This document shows, piece by piece, positions 33,856-41,115 of a stretch of DNA of 64,000 nt. Both the position numbers and the translations under genes were made by a program. The notes below the pieces were generated by a model, which saw only the letters and a program-made list of their open reading frames with translations, was not told where the DNA came from and searched no databases. The DNA is taken from positions 1-64,000 of the IMG/VR virus record IMGVR_UViG_3300043449_001609; one strand, given 5' to 3'. Each line of letters opens with the position of its first letter. The first letter of the stretch is position 1. This DNA is from a virus.

Positions 33856-33884
33856 ATTAAAACATAACAATTCGTTTCAATCAA
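33856..33884 (-). promoter_or_regulatory. Candidate sigma-70 promoter
   Basis: On the minus strand TTGATT (33879-33884), a 17-bp spacer and TTTAAT (33856-33861). It lies at the end of the SNF2 gene and 30 bp before the gene starting at 33825; it could supply SSB-like and primase-helicase transcripts. Confidence 0.5.
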
Positions 33885-35415
33885 GTAGTTTTCGATACAT
33901 TTCGACAATCTGGGTGTGAACGTCGATGTTGTTGTCCAGCATGCTGTACACGTGTCGCTCAACAGGGGCGCCTTCCAACCGCACGACAGTGCAAGGAAAC
34001 TTCTGTCCGGCACGGTGCGGTCGGGCGTTGGCTTGCGCGTAAATCTCCAGCGAGCTGGTCGGCCCCCACCAGACGATGGTGTCGGCTGCGGTGAGCGTCA
34101 CGCCGTGTGCGGCTGACTGAGGCTGGATAATCAGGATACGCGGGTCTGGGTCGTCTTGAAAAGCCCTGAACAGCCGCGTGCGCTCGCCGGCGGACACCGC
34201 CCCGTTGATGACCCCCACGGTGTAGCCGTCCTCCTTGAGCCGCGACTGCAGCGCCTGTATGGCGTGCGTGTACATGACGAACACCAGCACCTTGCGATCT
34301 GTCTCGCTGATGACCTCCTCCAGCACGCGGTAGCGGTTGCTGATGTCGTAGTCGAGGATTGCCCCGGACTCGGTGTAACTCGCCCCTGACGCGATCTGGA
34401 GCAGCCTGTTGAGCTTCACGGCGGCGTTGGCAGCGGTGATCTGCTCCCCGGCCGCGCTGATGAGCATGTGCTTGCGGAACTCGTCGTAGTAGTGCTTCTG
34501 CTGCTGCGTCATCGGCACGTGGCGCGTGACGTACGTTATCTCCGGCAGGTCAAGGCACTCCTTCTTGGTGAAGCGGATCGCCGGCTGCAGCGCAGCGTGC
34601 ACGATGTCCTTGGCGTTGGGGCGCGGGATGTACTTGAAGTTGGTGACCTTCTGCATCACCTGTTCGCGGAAGCCGTTGAAGAACCGCGGCACGCCGTTGG
34701 GGTTCACGAGCTTGGCCAGTCCGTAGGCATCCACAGGCGACTGCGCCGCCGGCGTGCCGGTCATCATCCACAGCCACGTATTGGGCTTGACGAGCTTGGC
34801 CATCGACTTCCACCGGCGCGTGCTGGTGGTCTTCACGGCGTTGGCTTCATCTGCGATGACAAGGTCGAACCCGGCAAGCATCAGGTACTCCATCATGATG
34901 GGCACCCCGTCGTAGTTGATGATGACGAACTCAGCGTTGCCTTGGATCACCTTGCGGCGCTGCTCGGCGGAGCCGTGTGCGATGTCCACGCGCCGGTGCA
35001 TGAGGGTCTTGAACAGGTCGCTCCGCCACGCGTTGTCCATGACGGACACAGGACACACGATCAGCACGCGCTTGATGAGCCCCTTCTCCATGAGGTAGTC
35101 CGCAGCCCACGCCGCCGACATTGTTTTCCCGGTTCCCTGTTCCCCGAAGTTGAACGCGCGCGAGTGCATGGTGAGGAACGCAGCGACCGTCTTCTGGTGC
35201 TCAAAGGGCTTGTACATGCCGGGCCAGTTGTAGTCCCGCATGATGGGAGATGGCGCTGACTTGACACCGAGGTTCTGCAGCACGCGCATCTCGTCTACGC
35301 CCCAGTGCACCAGCACGCGACCGTCCGGCAGCAGTCGACTCTTGGGTATGGCTGCCAGAATGTGTGCAGGCCGCTTCACGCGCACGGCAACGGCGCGGTT
35401 CTCGATTACTTCCAT
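33877..35415 (-). CDS. SNF2-family DNA helicase/translocase
   Basis: 512 residues from ATG 35415 (the longer start at 35466 overlaps the upstream gene). Motif I is FNFGEQGTGKTMSAAW (~89-104), motif Ia LIVCPVSVMDNAW, motif II VIADEAN (DEAN in place of DEAH), motif III MMTGTPAAQS. The C-terminal RecA lobe has KVLVFVMYTHAIQALQSRL, LIIQPQSAAHGVTLTAADTI (motif V) and QANARPHRAGQ (motif VI). It probably remodels forks or removes proteins from DNA during phage replication/recombination. Confidence 0.93.
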   Translation of the reverse strand: MEVIENRAVAVRVKRPAHILAAIPKSRLLPDGRVLVHWGVDEMRVLQNLGVKSAPSPIMRDYNWPGMYKPFEHQKTVAAFLTMHSRAFNFGEQGTGKTMSAAWAADYLMEKGLIKRVLIVCPVSVMDNAWRSDLFKTLMHRRVDIAHGSAEQRRKVIQGNAEFVIINYDGVPIMMEYLMLAGFDLVIADEANAVKTTSTRRWKSMAKLVKPNTWLWMMTGTPAAQSPVDAYGLAKLVNPNGVPRFFNGFREQVMQKVTNFKYIPRPNAKDIVHAALQPAIRFTKKECLDLPEITYVTRHVPMTQQQKHYYDEFRKHMLISAAGEQITAANAAVKLNRLLQIASGASYTESGAILDYDISNRYRVLEEVISETDRKVLVFVMYTHAIQALQSRLKEDGYTVGVINGAVSAGERTRLFRAFQDDPDPRILIIQPQSAAHGVTLTAADTIVWWGPTSSLEIYAQANARPHRAGQKFPCTVVRLEGAPVERHVYSMLDNNIDVHTQIVEMYRKLLD

Positions 35416-35420
35416 AAATT

Positions 35421-35930
35421 TTACATCCCCGATACGAGTTGGTCTAAGCGCAACGGTGCTGCGCACTCTGCATTAAGCTCCGGCTTCAGCACGTGAATAT
35501 ATATGGACTCTAGGCGGTTTAATTTTTCTGGCGGGCACGGGACGTAAGCAAAACGGTCAAATGTTTTATCTTTGTGCTGCGAGAGTCGGCTATAGACATT
35601 CACGGATTGTCCAACGTAGACAACTCGGTTGTCACGTATCAAGAAGTACACCCCAGACACACGAGACATACTGTAGCTGGCCGCTACAATGTGCTCCTCC
35701 GACAACAAAAGTTTATCGTTCAGTTCCGGGTGCTGGGCTTGCAGCTCCGCGCACAGCCTTGCCATTCCGAGTCGTTGCTCCAGAGCCTGCACTTCTTCGG
35801 CCAGACGGAAGCGCTGGCTCATCGCGTATTCTCGTTCCGCGTGCAGCTTGTCCAGTCTCGCTCGCCGTGTAGCCACCCCTTTTGCAGCGCTGGCTCTGCG
35901 CTGGTCCGGTGTCCTGTCGTGCAGTCCCAT
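35421..35930 (-). CDS. GIY-YIG nuclease
   Basis: 169 residues. The N-terminal ~85 residues are a basic coiled coil (RRARLDKLHAEREYAMSQRF...EEVQALEQRLG) and the C-terminal half has SGVYFLIRDNRVVYVGQSVN (GIY-YIG core as GVY-YVG), RLSQHK and NRLESIYIHVLKPELN (catalytic Arg/Glu helix). The 5' end has no strong Shine-Dalgarno. It lies between an HNH-like small gene and the SNF2 gene and looks like a mobile or recombination nuclease, perhaps a free-standing homing nuclease. Confidence 0.85.
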   Translation of the reverse strand: MGLHDRTPDQRRASAAKGVATRRARLDKLHAEREYAMSQRFRLAEEVQALEQRLGMARLCAELQAQHPELNDKLLLSEEHIVAASYSMSRVSGVYFLIRDNRVVYVGQSVNVYSRLSQHKDKTFDRFAYVPCPPEKLNRLESIYIHVLKPELNAECAAPLRLDQLVSGM

Positions 35931-36862: not shown

Positions 36863-37152
36863 TTCAAATCACTCCACGGTACATCTACACCACACAACAA
36901 GCACAGCGCGTTCTCGGGCATGAGACAGAACTCGTAGCTGCCGCACTTGCATTGAAACACCATACCTTCTGCCGGCAGCACCACGTGCGTGTACCGGCCC
37001 TTCATCGTGCCACAAGCCGGGCACTCCAGCTCACGCGTCCCTGCGGGGGCCACACAATGCCACTTATGCCGACACTCGATGCACACAGCTTCCGATTGAA
37101 TGTGCGGCATGCGCTTGAGGCGTTCGGCTTCCAAGTCGATGGGCTCGCTCAT
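36859..37152 (-). CDS. Zinc-ribbon protein
   Basis: 97 residues from ATG 37152 (GGAG 7 nt upstream). Two zinc-knuckle pairs: CIECRHKWHC and CPACGTMKGRY, then CKCGSYEFCL and CLLCGVDVPW. The C-terminal half also looks like a second ribbon. It ends in an ATGA overlap with the nuclease gene start and begins one base after the coiled-coil gene. Likely an accessory nucleic-acid-binding protein. Confidence 0.7.
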   Translation of the reverse strand: MSEPIDLEAERLKRMPHIQSEAVCIECRHKWHCVAPAGTRELECPACGTMKGRYTHVVLPAEGMVFQCKCGSYEFCLMPENALCLLCGVDVPWSDLK

Positions 37153-37153
37153 T

Positions 37154-37417
37154 TCATTTCTCCATATCACATGCCGTTTCCGCTATCGACGCAGTCAGCC
37201 CAGCAATATCAATAAAGCGAGCGATTGCATTTAGTGTTTTTTCCTGCTCGGCTAATTTTTCTTCGCACGCGCCCAATTTCGCTTTCGTACGCGCAACGTC
37301 TAGGTTCGCTCGCTGCAGTTGTATCATAAGACTAGAAATCTCCGCGGCGTGATCTGAGCACACACCAGCCAATTTCAGGTACTCATCTTCTAAGTTAGTC
37401 CACTGTATGTCGTTCAT
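37154..37417 (-). CDS. Small coiled-coil protein
   Basis: 87 residues from ATG 37417, which overlaps the polymerase stop. A continuous helix, LMIQLQRANLDVARTKAKLG then ACEEKLAEQEKTLNA, is followed by a short hydrophobic end. Its leader (TATGGAGAAATGAAATG at the minus strand) is nearly identical to that of the next gene, which suggests duplicated leader sequence. Function unknown. Confidence 0.6.
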   Translation of the reverse strand: MNDIQWTNLEDEYLKLAGVCSDHAAEISSLMIQLQRANLDVARTKAKLGACEEKLAEQEKTLNAIARFIDIAGLTASIAETACDMEK

Positions 37418-40284
37418 TTCATTTCTCCATAGCACGTACCCGTGCTGCCTGCGGCCCACACGACCAGCTGCGGCCACCACGCCGGCGGCGTGCGCATGAT
37501 GCGCAGCACCGTGTCCAGCAGCGCGTCAGCGTCTTCCTCCGGTGCCACGTACATCAGCTCGTCATGCACCGACAACACCGGGCGTTGCTTGGTTGCCTTG
37601 TAGATGTCGAACGCCATGTCAGCCACCACGTCGCGCGCCAGCGCCTGCACGCAGTTGTGCACTATGAACGGGCCTTCTTTGCCTTTGACGACAAACCGTT
37701 GTCGGGGGCCACAGTTGACGATGTCGTATACCGACCGCTGACATTCGGCGTTGTCCGCAGCTGTGTTTTGCTCCATCCGTGTGAAATTCGATAGTACAGC
37801 GTCGAGCGGCTTATTCCAGTCTGTGCGCTCAACTGCGGCACGTCCACCATGCGAATTGTATTTCGTTTGTTCATGGTGTTTACCCGACGAGAAACCCACC
37901 GGCAGTTCTTCTTTGTGTAGTCTCCTTCGTTGTTTTTTCGATCCAAGTCCATCCCCGGCTGGTACGAGCTGCCCATGTCCGCCCAGAAATTCTCGAAAGA
38001 TGCTTGCCATCGAACACACACTGTTATTCCACGCGCTCCGTAGTTTTTCCACGCCCTGTGCGATGGCAGCTGGCAGCGGTCCAACATAGCCCTCCACACT
38101 GCGTATGCCGGGTGCTTTGACATGCCGTGTGTCGTTACCTTCTGTCTCAATCTGTCCCAGCTGGAACACCCGCAATTGGGCACTCTCCCCGCGCGCATAT
38201 CTTTTTTGACGTCGCAGCCAAGTTTCTCGCAGCGATTTCCACATGCGCACTGGAACTCCCAACTCCATGTCTTTCCCGTGGACCGTGTCGGTCGCACCGC
38301 TGTCAACTTCCCGAATGTTTGGCCGGTAAGGTCTTTGAACCTCCAGTGCAGCTTTCCATCCTTCATCCGTTAGTACCTCATGATCCGGTGTCATAAACAC
38401 ACCATCCACGGTAACACAGGTTTGGACTGATTTGAATACTTTACCGGCATGCCGCACGAACTCGACACCATCGTGCACTCTGTCATCCAAGCGCACGTCT
38501 TGTATCGGCACCCAACCGCGCTCACATAGAACCAACGTGCCTTCGGCTATGCAGTTCTCGTCGATCTTCCCAGCATAAATACGTGCAGTGTGGCGCCCCT
38601 CGCCGTAGAACCACTCCGTCTTGCCCGCCTCGTCCATCTGCTTGCGCAGCTCCGGGTAGCGGATATACCGCCCGCTCGGGAGCATGATGCCCTCTGCACA
38701 GGTGCGTGTCAGTCCCCACGGATCAATCGGCACGATGTCGCCGGACTCGATAGCCGGCAGCAGCGAGTGACACTTTTTCCACCCCTGCACAATCTCGGGG
38801 TACATCTCGCGCCACGCGTTTTTGATGTTCTCGGACTCCGCTTCGGTCAGCGTGACACCGCCCATCGTCTTGGCCACGCTGCGGAATGTCTCGGCGCCCG
38901 AACCGAAGCCCAAGCCCAGCTGCGCCACCTTGCCCATCTGACGCTGGTCTTTCGACACGTCCTTCACAGGCACAGCGTATAGCGACGCCGCAAACTGCCG
39001 ATACAGGTCGGCTTCTGCTGGGTCTTTCTTGAACAGGTCCATGCTGCTCGGCACTTTCCACAGGAAGTGGTTCACGCGCAGCTCGATGCCGGACAAGTCA
39101 GCCACGACCAGCTTGTGGCCGGGCGGTGCGTTGATACTGCACCGCAGGGCGTCGGAGATTTTTGGTGCTTTGGGGTTCACGCGCGGCAGGTTCTGCAGGT
39201 TCAGGCCGCCGATGCCGGCGCCCCAGCGCCCCGTCGTGGTTGCGCCACAGTAGTTGAGCGGGACAGGCAGCTTGCCCTTCATCGTCTTGCCGACGTTGAT
39301 GAAAGACTCCAGCCGCGTTTCGATAATGGTGGACTTCACATCCAGACGCGCGCACACCGCGGCGGCGACAAGTTCGTTCTCGTGTTCCTGCAGGGCAAGA
39401 AACTCCTGATCGGTCTTTGAGAACGCCAGCGTCTGCTGCCCCGTGGTGGGGCTGATCTTGGTGGGCGGTGTCACGCCCTCTTGTGCCATAACGGCGGCCA
39501 GCTTGACGTTGGACATCAGTGTGGCCTTGGTGCGCTCAATGGCTGCGTCCATGACGCCGCTCACGACAGCGCGATGGATGGCTTCTTCCTCGCCAAACTG
39601 CCGCTTCAAGTCAAGCATTTCCAGATCGAGCACGGATGCCAGTTTCTGCAGCGCCCGCACCTTGCGTGCTTGCTCCTTGATGAGTGCGCTCTCCAGCATG
39701 CGCTTGTCGAGTATCAGCTTCGGGTCGATGAGCATGCGGATGGTGGAGTCTATCTGCCACATCTCGCGGGAGTTGTAGTGCGGCAACAGCTTCTTGAACA
39801 GTGCGGCGCATTGCTCGGTGTCTGCTTCGTTGTATATCTTCATCTGCTCACGTTCAGCAGCAGTGAACTCGGCCAACTTCCTGCCCTGCGTCTTGAGCAG
39901 GACGGTGTTGTCCTTCTTCCCCAGCTCGTAGTGTTCCACCAGCTTGGCCAGTGAGTTGCCTACGGTCAGGTTGTGGATGGGCTTGGCCATCGCCAGCGTA
40001 CACCCCCACGCTTTCGGCTTCACACCCAGACGCCATGCGAAGATCATGGCGTCGAACCCGGACATGTTGTGCGCCACGAACAGGGCGTCCGAGAAGTCGG
40101 TCCTCTCCAGCAGCTCGCGTATTTTCCACTCGCCAAACACAACCTTGGTGGGCGCGTCACCCACCTTGAGTGACAGCGAAATCAACTCCGTCTCCTTGTG
40201 CAGACAGTAGTCAATCGGACTCATCTTCGACAGCGAATGTGTCTGGCTCCAGAACGTCTCCAAGTCTCCCACTATTACTTTCAT
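37414..40284 (-). CDS. Family-A DNA polymerase interrupted by an intein
   Basis: 956-codon frame: 656 extein residues plus a 300-residue intein (578-877). The 3'-5' exonuclease motifs are VGDLETF (D7, E9), AHNMSGFDAMIFAW and YNEADTEQ. Polymerase motif A is VVADLSGIELR (~393-403), motif B is RQMGKVAQLGLGFGSG (R448, K452) and motif C is VLSVHDELMY (H907, D908). In the O-helix the positions equivalent to E. coli Pol I Phe762 and Tyr766 appear to be Leu456 and Phe460. The intein sits in the conserved EN-CVQALARD stretch between motifs B and C. No 5' nuclease domain is present, as usual in phage enzymes. Confidence 0.93.
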   Translation of the reverse strand: MKVIVGDLETFWSQTHSLSKMSPIDYCLHKETELISLSLKVGDAPTKVVFGEWKIRELLERTDFSDALFVAHNMSGFDAMIFAWRLGVKPKAWGCTLAMAKPIHNLTVGNSLAKLVEHYELGKKDNTVLLKTQGRKLAEFTAAEREQMKIYNEADTEQCAALFKKLLPHYNSREMWQIDSTIRMLIDPKLILDKRMLESALIKEQARKVRALQKLASVLDLEMLDLKRQFGEEEAIHRAVVSGVMDAAIERTKATLMSNVKLAAVMAQEGVTPPTKISPTTGQQTLAFSKTDQEFLALQEHENELVAAAVCARLDVKSTIIETRLESFINVGKTMKGKLPVPLNYCGATTTGRWGAGIGGLNLQNLPRVNPKAPKISDALRCSINAPPGHKLVVADLSGIELRVNHFLWKVPSSMDLFKKDPAEADLYRQFAASLYAVPVKDVSKDQRQMGKVAQLGLGFGSGAETFRSVAKTMGGVTLTEAESENIKNAWREMYPEIVQGWKKCHSLLPAIESGDIVPIDPWGLTRTCAEGIMLPSGRYIRYPELRKQMDEAGKTEWFYGEGRHTARIYAGKIDENCIAEGTLVLCERGWVPIQDVRLDDRVHDGVEFVRHAGKVFKSVQTCVTVDGVFMTPDHEVLTDEGWKAALEVQRPYRPNIREVDSGATDTVHGKDMELGVPVRMWKSLRETWLRRQKRYARGESAQLRVFQLGQIETEGNDTRHVKAPGIRSVEGYVGPLPAAIAQGVEKLRSAWNNSVCSMASIFREFLGGHGQLVPAGDGLGSKKQRRRLHKEELPVGFSSGKHHEQTKYNSHGGRAAVERTDWNKPLDAVLSNFTRMEQNTAADNAECQRSVYDIVNCGPRQRFVVKGKEGPFIVHNCVQALARDVVADMAFDIYKATKQRPVLSVHDELMYVAPEEDADALLDTVLRIMRTPPAWWPQLVVWAAGSTGTCYGEMK
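37654..38553 (-). mobile_element. Intein in DNA polymerase, with an overlapping endonuclease ORF
   Basis: Residues 578-877 of the polymerase frame. Block A is CIAEGTLVLCERGWVPIQDV (Cys1 nucleophile). Block B is TPDHEVLTDEGW (T-x-x-H). Blocks F/G are VYDIVNCGPRQRFVV and GPFIVHN, followed by Cys+1 of the C-extein, the standard His-Asn/Cys splice end. There is no LAGLIDADG or HNH motif in the intein frame. The middle ~205 residues (from about 645 to 850) are low in recognisable motifs, but the same DNA encodes a complete endonuclease in another frame. So the intein is probably splicing-competent with its homing function supplied out of frame. Confidence 0.92.
37662..38366 (-). CDS. Homing endonuclease nested out of frame in the intein
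   Basis: 234 residues, entirely inside the intein DNA and in a different frame from the polymerase. Start ATG 38366 has GAGG 9 nt upstream, itself encoded by intein block B codons. The N-terminal zinc/beta motif has WEFQCACGNRCEKLG and NCGCS. THGMSKHPAYAVWRAMLDRC is followed by NYGARGITVCVRW, and LDRKNNEGDYTKKNCRWV forms the catalytic-type core. The C-terminal QLSAQTGISRSTLYYRIS is a helix-turn-helix (NUMOD-like). This motif order is the common phage W-x-C-x-CGN/HNH-like nuclease family. Expected target: the intein-free polymerase gene. Confidence 0.88.
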   Translation of the reverse strand: MKDGKLHWRFKDLTGQTFGKLTAVRPTRSTGKTWSWEFQCACGNRCEKLGCDVKKDMRAGRVPNCGCSSWDRLRQKVTTHGMSKHPAYAVWRAMLDRCQLPSHRAWKNYGARGITVCVRWQASFENFWADMGSSYQPGMDLDRKNNEGDYTKKNCRWVSRRVNTMNKRNTIRMVDVPQLSAQTGISRSTLYYRISHGWSKTQLRTTPNVSGRYTTSSTVAPDNGLSSKAKKARS

Positions 40285-40287
40285 AGG

Positions 40288-40485
40288 TCACGCCCACGTA
40301 TTGTTGTGGATGACGTTGAAGATACACATGGTGGACACGTCGTACCGCTTCGCAAGCATGGCTTGTGTGTAGCGCCCGGTTTCGTACAGCACGCGGATGC
40401 GTGCGGCCTTGGCGTATGTGAGTTTGGCGCGGCCGTTACGTTCGCCGGCGTTGTTGGAAACTTTCTTCGCAGTTGACTTCTTCAC
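40288..40485 (-). CDS. Small helix-turn-helix protein
   Basis: 65 residues from a GTG (AAAGGAG 7 nt upstream; GTGA overlap with the upstream gene). NGRAKLTYAKAARIRVLYET, then YTQAMLAKRYDVSTMCIFNV, then IHNNTWA: a compact HTH like those at the end of homing or NUMOD-type proteins. It could be a remnant of a nuclease, or a small regulator. It lies directly upstream of the polymerase and so may be coexpressed with it. Confidence 0.7.
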   Translation of the reverse strand: MKKSTAKKVSNNAGERNGRAKLTYAKAARIRVLYETGRYTQAMLAKRYDVSTMCIFNVIHNNTWA

Positions 40486-40928
40486 TTGGACTCTCCTTTC
40501 ACAATGTCATGTAGATCAAACTTGGTGTTCTCCCGTGCACGGAGTGCGGGGAGTATTGCTGCCTGCTCGTCCAGCAGCTCGTCAAAGTCCCCCATGTAGG
40601 GGGGCCGGTTGTCGTTGAACAGCTCGGTGCCGTCAACATCCAGTATCATCATCAGGCACGCGCAGGCAGCTGCCAGCGGGTGTACGCCGTCCGATGTCTT
40701 ATCCTTCCCACACCACCACGCAAAGATGTGTCGCATGGCCGCGCCAAAGTACACGCTGGCGCTGATCTTCTCCTCCTCCCAGTTGTATGGTTGATATTTA
40801 AACCCACCGTCCGCAAACGCCATGGCGATCTTCGCCAGTGCACGGACAGGTATGAGGTGAAGCGGCACTTTGTTCATGCCGCCCACGCGCGTCTTTGGGT
40901 TGCTGTCAGGTGCCGGCATTGCTGTCAT
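40482..40928 (-). CDS. dATP/dGTP diphosphohydrolase-like protein
   Basis: 148 residues; starts at 40928 or 40919 are both possible (overlaps the previous gene by 10-23 nt). SNPKTRVGGMNKVPLHLIPV, FADGGFKYQPYNWEEEKIS and YFGAAMRHIFAWWCG then SDGVHPLAAACACLMMILDV match the N-terminal domain of the dATP/dGTP diphosphohydrolase group found in phages. It probably adjusts dNTP pools. No PurZ or thymidylate-modifying enzyme is in the window, so a modified-base system is not supported here. Confidence 0.72.
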   Translation of the reverse strand: MTAMPAPDSNPKTRVGGMNKVPLHLIPVRALAKIAMAFADGGFKYQPYNWEEEKISASVYFGAAMRHIFAWWCGKDKTSDGVHPLAAACACLMMILDVDGTELFNDNRPPYMGDFDELLDEQAAILPALRARENTKFDLHDIVKGESK

Positions 40929-41115
40929 CCCGTAGAAACTCAATGGTCGGTGCTTCTTCCCGCAGTGCGTAGTATTCAATCTGTGCTTTGGCCGAGTTAA
41001 TCATCTTGCCCGCGATGTTGGCAAGTTCTGCAGCCTCGTGGTGCTGCATCTTCCCCTGCTTCAGTAGTTTGAACACGTCGCTTAATTCCGTCCGTAACTC
41101 ACTTGCCGTTTTCAT
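40906..41115 (-). CDS. Small helical phage protein
   Basis: 69 residues from ATG 41115 (AGAGG 7 nt upstream; the ATG 41121 is too close). TASELRTELSDVFKLLKQGK, then AAELANIAGKMINSAKAQIE form two long helices, followed by a short tail. Proteins with ELAN-x-A-GK-MI-N/S are found beside replication genes of several phages. It overlaps both neighbours by a few codons. Function unknown. Confidence 0.62.
   Translation of the reverse strand: MKTASELRTELSDVFKLLKQGKMQHHEAAELANIAGKMINSAKAQIEYYALREEAPTIEFLRDDSNAGT

Follow-up and report, generated by a model that had tools for sequence, protein, structure and literature searches.

A family A DNA polymerase gene in a 64,000-nucleotide stretch of viral DNA (IMG/VR virus record IMGVR_UViG_3300043449_001609, positions 1 to 64,000; the whole stretch is called the window below) contains an intein, and the DNA of this intein contains a second gene, for an HNH endonuclease, which is read on the same strand in a different frame. 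The segment is very probably a composite mobile intein that splices from frame 0 and makes a homing nuclease from frame +1 by internal initiation. All window genes and features given here with coordinates lie on the minus strand.

An HNH gene nested in a polymerase intein

The polymerase open reading frame (ORF; 37414..40284) encodes a precursor of 956 residues and matches DNA_pol_A (1.5e-20) and the PHROG 17 DNA polymerase family (2e-65). It is uninterrupted through the intein, so the window does not hold a split intein in a fractured gene. Comparison with intein-free polymerases places the end of the N-extein (38554..40284) at ...GKIDEN, and the C-extein (37417..37653) starts with CVQALARD. 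The 300-residue intein between them (37654..38553, polymerase residues 578-877) has the residues of a class 1 intein, namely Cys1, TPDH in the block B region (GVFMTPDHEVLTDEGW, 38356..38403) and VYDIVNCGP...HN in blocks F and G (QRSVYDIVNCGPRQRFVV...IVHN, 37654..37740), followed by Cys at +1. Thr55 and His58 of block B are invariant in the family, and the block F Asp is also conserved. In the AlphaFold2 (AF2) model of the intein, both ends have a predicted local distance difference test score (pLDDT) above 90 and residues 84-269 are mostly below 50. The top Foldseek matches of this model are the gp41-1 and DnaB inteins (probability 1.00, E 0.002), identifying a Hint fold. Residues 84-269 (37747..38304), which share their DNA with the HNH gene, form a stop-free linker that is predicted to be disordered. 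The middle of the intein gave no family match in its own frame, and thus no in-frame endonuclease domain was found.

The nested gene (37662..38366) encodes 234 residues in frame +1 of the polymerase. It covers 705 of the 900 intein bases (78%) and terminates inside block G, so that its C-terminus overlaps blocks F and G. Its product matches the PHROG 374 HNH endonucleases across residues 9-194 (E 6.7e-54), and its AF2 model has a mean pLDDT of 85.5; a Pfam search of the nested ORF returned no nuclease match. An HNH-like core (LDRKNN...YTKKNCRW...NTMNKR, 37863..37958) stands out by its conserved columns and a weak match to I-HmuI. A GAGG Shine-Dalgarno sequence (38376..38379) ends 9 nt before the nested ATG and belongs to the block-B codons GAG GTA, read in the intein as Glu-Val. 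The codons of block B thus double as the Shine-Dalgarno sequence and start codon of the HNH gene, and a TAA in the HNH frame (38370..38372) lies two codons ahead of the ATG.

A preliminary description of this DNA, made from its letters alone, had given the same anatomy and coordinates: a polymerase intein with complete splice blocks (Cys1, TPDH, HN/Cys+1) and no nuclease in its own frame, and a 234-residue nuclease ORF in another frame, nine bases behind a GAGG made of Glu-Val codons. All of this is confirmed in the sequence, the intein further by its fold model, and the nested ORF by its PHROG 374 match. We infer a homing endonuclease role for the nested protein from this homology, from purifying selection and from a relative with an exact empty site.

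The intein frame is kept free of stop codons

Relatives were collected by scanning viral contigs and bacterial genomes with the HNH protein, and viral contigs with the first 70 residues of the intein. After identical DNA had been dropped, the set comprised 87 intact inteins, the window counted in. As a null model, the HNH codons of each locus were shuffled among synonymous positions, which keeps the HNH protein and its codon usage fixed.

Across the HNH region of the 87 inteins, the intein frame contains 0 stops against 547 expected (519.8 in the +1 set and 26.8 in the +2 set); the loci are related, with HNH identities spanning down to about 36%, and these totals are not independent trials. 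The third frame, taken as a control, shows no depletion (918 stops versus 871.3 expected in the +1 set and 142 versus 131.5 in the +2 set; 1060 versus 1003 in total). Among 67 free-standing HNH relatives, the equivalent frame has 1007 stops versus 1073 expected and is open in 0/67. Three loci in which the intein frame is interrupted carry 32 stops versus 33.6 expected, so the depletion vanishes where translation through the intein is not required. In the window by itself, 6.43 intein-frame stops are expected and 0 of 2000 shuffles are open. The synonymous shuffles, the third-frame control and the free-standing relatives rule out a chance ORF, bearing out the earlier judgement that a frame of 235 codons is improbably open by chance.

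Selection differs along the overlap

The ratio of non-synonymous to synonymous substitution rates (dN/dS) was calculated for both frames. In close pairs, it is 0.05-0.13 for the HNH frame, and about 0.1 in most close pairs for the N blocks and splicing blocks of the intein. Mid-overlap, the values for the intein frame are 1.1-2.4, similar to the unused third frame.

Amino-acid similarity agrees with this pattern. In 43 non-redundant sequences, intein-frame similarity is far above a synonymous-shuffle null where the overlap begins (z 9.0) and in blocks F and G (z 24.2 and 12.8). Between these ends it is near the null, and the third frame deviates about equally. The near-null conservation and the mid-overlap dN/dS thus mark the middle of the intein as a linker that is free of stops and has its sequence set by the HNH gene. 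Genuine two-protein constraint is confined to both ends of the overlap; between them, the intein frame stays open while its sequence is not conserved. Amino-acid selection on the intein frame across the whole overlap was considered and rejected, as it is clear only at the ends. The preliminary description had about 700 of the 900 bases coding for two proteins; this is an overstatement, for although both frames are open and maintained, constraint on the sequence of both is clear only at the overlap start and in blocks F and G.

Start sites of the nested gene

Starts in the family cluster at two sites. At the first, present in the window, an ATG is preceded by GAGGT from the block-B His-Glu-Val codons. 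The second lies 15 nt downstream of the first and has an ATG or GTG behind GAAGG or GGAGG, which is supplied by Glu-Gly codons. When starts were picked irrespective of Shine-Dalgarno sequences, a match of at least 5 nt is found in 24/43 relatives, compared with a mean of 14.4 and a maximum of 21 when the intein codons are redrawn synonymously (0/500 draws as high). A stop in the HNH frame lies within 30 nt upstream of the start in 31/43 relatives. Shine-Dalgarno enrichment together with upstream in-frame stops favours internal initiation over frameshifting. In the window, the TAA two codons ahead of the ATG means that the HNH ORF cannot be extended upstream, which argues against a frameshift fusion.

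The nested layout is the rule in its family

The preliminary description regarded a fully out-of-frame nested nuclease as unusual. Within its family it is instead the rule: the HNH gene is out of frame in 87/87 intact inteins, 78 in +1, 9 in +2 and 0 in frame. When the relatives were examined for loss or breakage of either ORF, both proved to be present and open across this set, and the HNH protein is full length in nearly all relatives. Cys1 is present in 87/87 inteins, a C-terminal HN or SN in 85/87, and C or S at +1 in 85/87. The scan with the N block was blind to the nuclease; each intein that it recovered with both ends paired had an out-of-frame HNH gene or, in L132 only, a remnant of one, and none had the gene in frame (relatives are denoted here by L and a number).

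A tblastn search against annotated phages found the same layout in Shewanella phage SFCi1, APSE phages and Caulobacter phages GB2A, RW, RLK and KcrB. More distant polymerase inteins at other sites carry other HNH subfamilies, in +1 in Streptococcus phage Javan255 and Gardnerella phage AB1; in EBPR siphovirus 2, Pseudomonas phage MR14 and Vibrio phage 97.13, the HNH gene of such distant inteins is in +2. A second clade, at the polymerase sites RFVGKT^C and RQLGKA^C, has a different HNH gene nested in +2 with zero intein-frame stops (L162, L164, L165, L170-L173, L175-L177 and L132:1747-2580). The intein tree is poorly resolved; two frame changes appear to fit it best, and one origin is also compatible with it.

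Besides the polymerase, at least an SNF2-like helicase serves as host gene. In L023, L024, L050 and L052, the same intein with its nested HNH gene sits at the site LLQIS^CG of an apparent SNF2-like helicase, an identity that rests on this motif matching the SNF2 gene of the window itself; L023 and L024 additionally have an intein-free polymerase. The helicase gene of the window (33877-35466) has an empty LLQIS^CG site (LNRLLQIASGASY). In another relative (L048:2835-4448), a single ORF holds three tandem HNH-family stretches.

Mobility, decay and split forms

Contigs L195 and L138 are 93% identical around the polymerase site (91.7% and 96.9% on its two sides), and exactly the 900-bp intein is missing in L195. 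The empty site reads EN^VCQAVAR and the occupied one EN^[intein]CCQAVAR. Such exact absence in a near relative indicates that these elements are mobile; it was seen in this pair of relatives, not in the window's own lineage. Intein and HNH distances are correlated (Mantel r 0.68, 0/1000 permutations), and thus the two travel together.

Several loci have lost the nuclease in part or entirely. In L132:3001-3471, a 157-residue intein with an HNH remnant keeps the intein frame open. Polymerase inteins of Ruminococcus phages are short and without a nuclease, and their frame is open (L187 and L192, both from 2501, are also among the short-intein loci). The intein of Streptococcus phage Javan422 contains a truncated nested HNH gene in an open frame (L189 from 2501 is among the short-intein loci). 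L120, a contig from an Arsenophonus endosymbiont, looks like a decayed copy: what is left of its prophage includes a fragment of the polymerase and a nested HNH gene broken by a frameshift.

In three further loci (L137:136-1140, L154:1-950 and L018:3732-4704), and in these alone, the polymerase is split, and the ORFs for N-intein, HNH protein and C-intein overlap in three frames, with the HNH gene across the gap. Further downstream, the polymerase of L137 and that of L154 each carry another nested intein, which is intact. From this arrangement, the three look like fractured-gene split inteins that would have derived from the nested layout.

Other genes in the window

A GIY-YIG nuclease gene (35421-35930; Pfam 7.9e-5) lies between a PD-(D/E)XK nuclease gene and the helicase gene, and is possibly another mobile nuclease. 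Near the polymerase is a gene with a dATP/dGTP diphosphohydrolase N-terminal domain (40482-40979; 1.6e-18), and the polymerase has weak, below-cutoff similarity to DpoZ. The contig of the window gave no match to the adenylosuccinate synthetase family, and a modified-base genome is therefore not supported.

Discussion

Several other explanations of the nested layout were weighed. If the nested HNH gene were a decayed or chance frame, the element would be a mini-intein with an unconstrained linker and a functionless second ORF. The replacement of the first catalytic His by Arg fits such a reading, and nuclease activity is itself a prediction. However, the low dN/dS of the HNH frame, its full length in nearly all relatives and its good AF2 model make this very improbable, and real decay looks different, as in the short intein of L132 and the frameshifted gene of L120. 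HNH genes are also common in phage group I introns, and the segment might be an intron, or contain one within the intein, that is removed at the RNA level so that frame 0 is never translated. This is hardly credible given 0 versus 547 frame-0 stops, which point to translation through the segment and are set against neutral counts in the interrupted loci. The splicing blocks are moreover under purifying selection, and an Rfam search of 37000-40600 yielded no match to a group I or group II intron up to E 1.

Programmed frameshifting could make the HNH protein as a fusion to the N-terminus of the intein, and it would suit the overlapping frames and a shift direction that is constant within a clade. 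We consider it unlikely, since the HNH frame has a stop just upstream of its start in the window and in most relatives, and the start codons come with enriched Shine-Dalgarno sequences. The splicing of the window intein is predicted, and one may ask whether the insert has lost splicing and persists as a loop that the polymerase tolerates, as has been suggested for ShiLan. Conservation of C1, the block B TxxH, the block F Asp, HN and C+1, the Hint fold of the modelled ends and an insertion site beside conserved polymerase residues leave this alternative with next to no probability.

Some results weigh against a composite mobile intein with an active nested nuclease. A fold search of the Protein Data Bank with the HNH model found no credible match. 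At HNH residue 143 (about 37938-37940), an invariant Arg, shared by free-standing relatives, stands where I-HmuI has His (DR for DH) in a weak alignment (E 0.42), and catalysis by the nested HNH family is thus not assured. The block-B GAGG accompanies the first start position in the raw counts (26/28 versus 8/44); on the tree, this association is not significant, with few independent changes. As the tree leaves 4 supported independent pairs, coevolution of the block-B Glu with start position was dropped as independent proof of initiation. Presence and absence in near relatives shows mobility, not that the nested nuclease causes it. One of the main uncertainties, along with this Arg and the predicted nature of splicing and cleavage, is that viral sequences matching the joined exteins of the window were distant polymerases only, with no close empty-site relative of the window phage among them.

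We therefore retain the composite mobile intein as the best explanation and propose the following model, in which splicing, HNH translation, cleavage and homing are all predicted. Ribosomes starting at the polymerase ATG would translate the whole intein, 300 codons long, in frame 0. The Hint splicing domain would form from the N-terminal block (about 80 residues) together with the C-terminal block (about 30), with the ~185 residues between them as a disordered loop, and the intein would excise itself and join the exteins. Other ribosomes would start within the intein at the Shine-Dalgarno sequence formed by block-B codons or, in relatives, also by the following Glu-Gly codons, and, translating this DNA in +1, would yield the HNH endonuclease as a protein of its own. 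Intein-free polymerase genes are the most likely target of this enzyme, to be cut or nicked at ...EN^xCQA..., and repair after the cut would copy the intein into the empty site.

One homologue in a named phage is the polymerase intein of Hamiltonella phage APSE-1 (P45; NC_000935), which occupies the same polymerase site and has the same +1 HNH gene, with 46% amino-acid identity between the two HNH proteins. In NC_000935, the polymerase and an overlapping P46 'HNH endonuclease' are both annotated, in different frames, with P46 annotated too short; the overlap in APSE-1 is thus already in the public record. The APSE-1 paper is cited in a paper on viral inteins (PMC549080). In the open-access literature, we found no out-of-frame homing endonuclease inside an intein; subscription papers, including the 1999 APSE-1 paper, lay outside this search.

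The one close open-access precedent is the ShiLan domain with the Pacc40 insertion, reported in 2025, in which out-of-frame HNH genes lie in methylases without a splicing domain (PMC11855218). ShiLan and the window share an HNH gene within a host gene in another frame, a stop-free host frame and a sporadic, homing-like distribution. ShiLan, however, starts at a GTG without a Shine-Dalgarno sequence and is proposed to remain part of the protein (PMC11855218), whereas the HNH gene of the window is housed in an intein whose splice blocks are complete, with its Shine-Dalgarno sequence and ATG built from intein codons. Conventional mobile inteins also combine intein and homing nuclease at one locus, the HNH type included, as in the cyanophage CL131 dCTP deaminase intein with an in-frame HNH_3 (PMC6293099). 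Their nuclease belongs to the same polypeptide and frame, unlike the window, where it is a separate protein from another frame. In 2009, Dassa et al. reportedly described fractured genes in which the two halves of a split intein flank a free-standing nuclease gene. Such systems resemble the window in having intein and nuclease as separate proteins, and differ from it in that the window has an intact host gene and a contiguous intein. The window HNH protein also belongs to the same sequence family as the PHROG 374 phage endonucleases, with a distant resemblance to I-HmuI, and many of these relatives, at 67 loci, are free-standing.

Accounts of mobile inteins usually present the splicing and nuclease domains as fused in one frame, or else describe mini or split forms. 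In the whole family described here, a single stretch of DNA encodes two separate proteins, one for splicing and one for the nuclease function. On balance, we think that it represents a large and phylogenetically wide class of phage inteins, found at several polymerase sites and in an SNF2-like helicase, in which the homing nuclease gene is overprinted and takes its ribosome-binding site from catalytic-block codons, so that the proteins for splicing and mobility would not easily be lost separately by stops or frameshifts. The overlap is a stable one in which one frame is selected for its sequence and the other mostly for the absence of stops, with measurable constraint at both ends. The class may also precede phage split inteins, and L137, L154 and L018 suggest a route from contiguous to split forms. 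Many phage 'mini-inteins' or odd polymerase insertions may conceal a nuclease that frame-by-frame annotation has missed.

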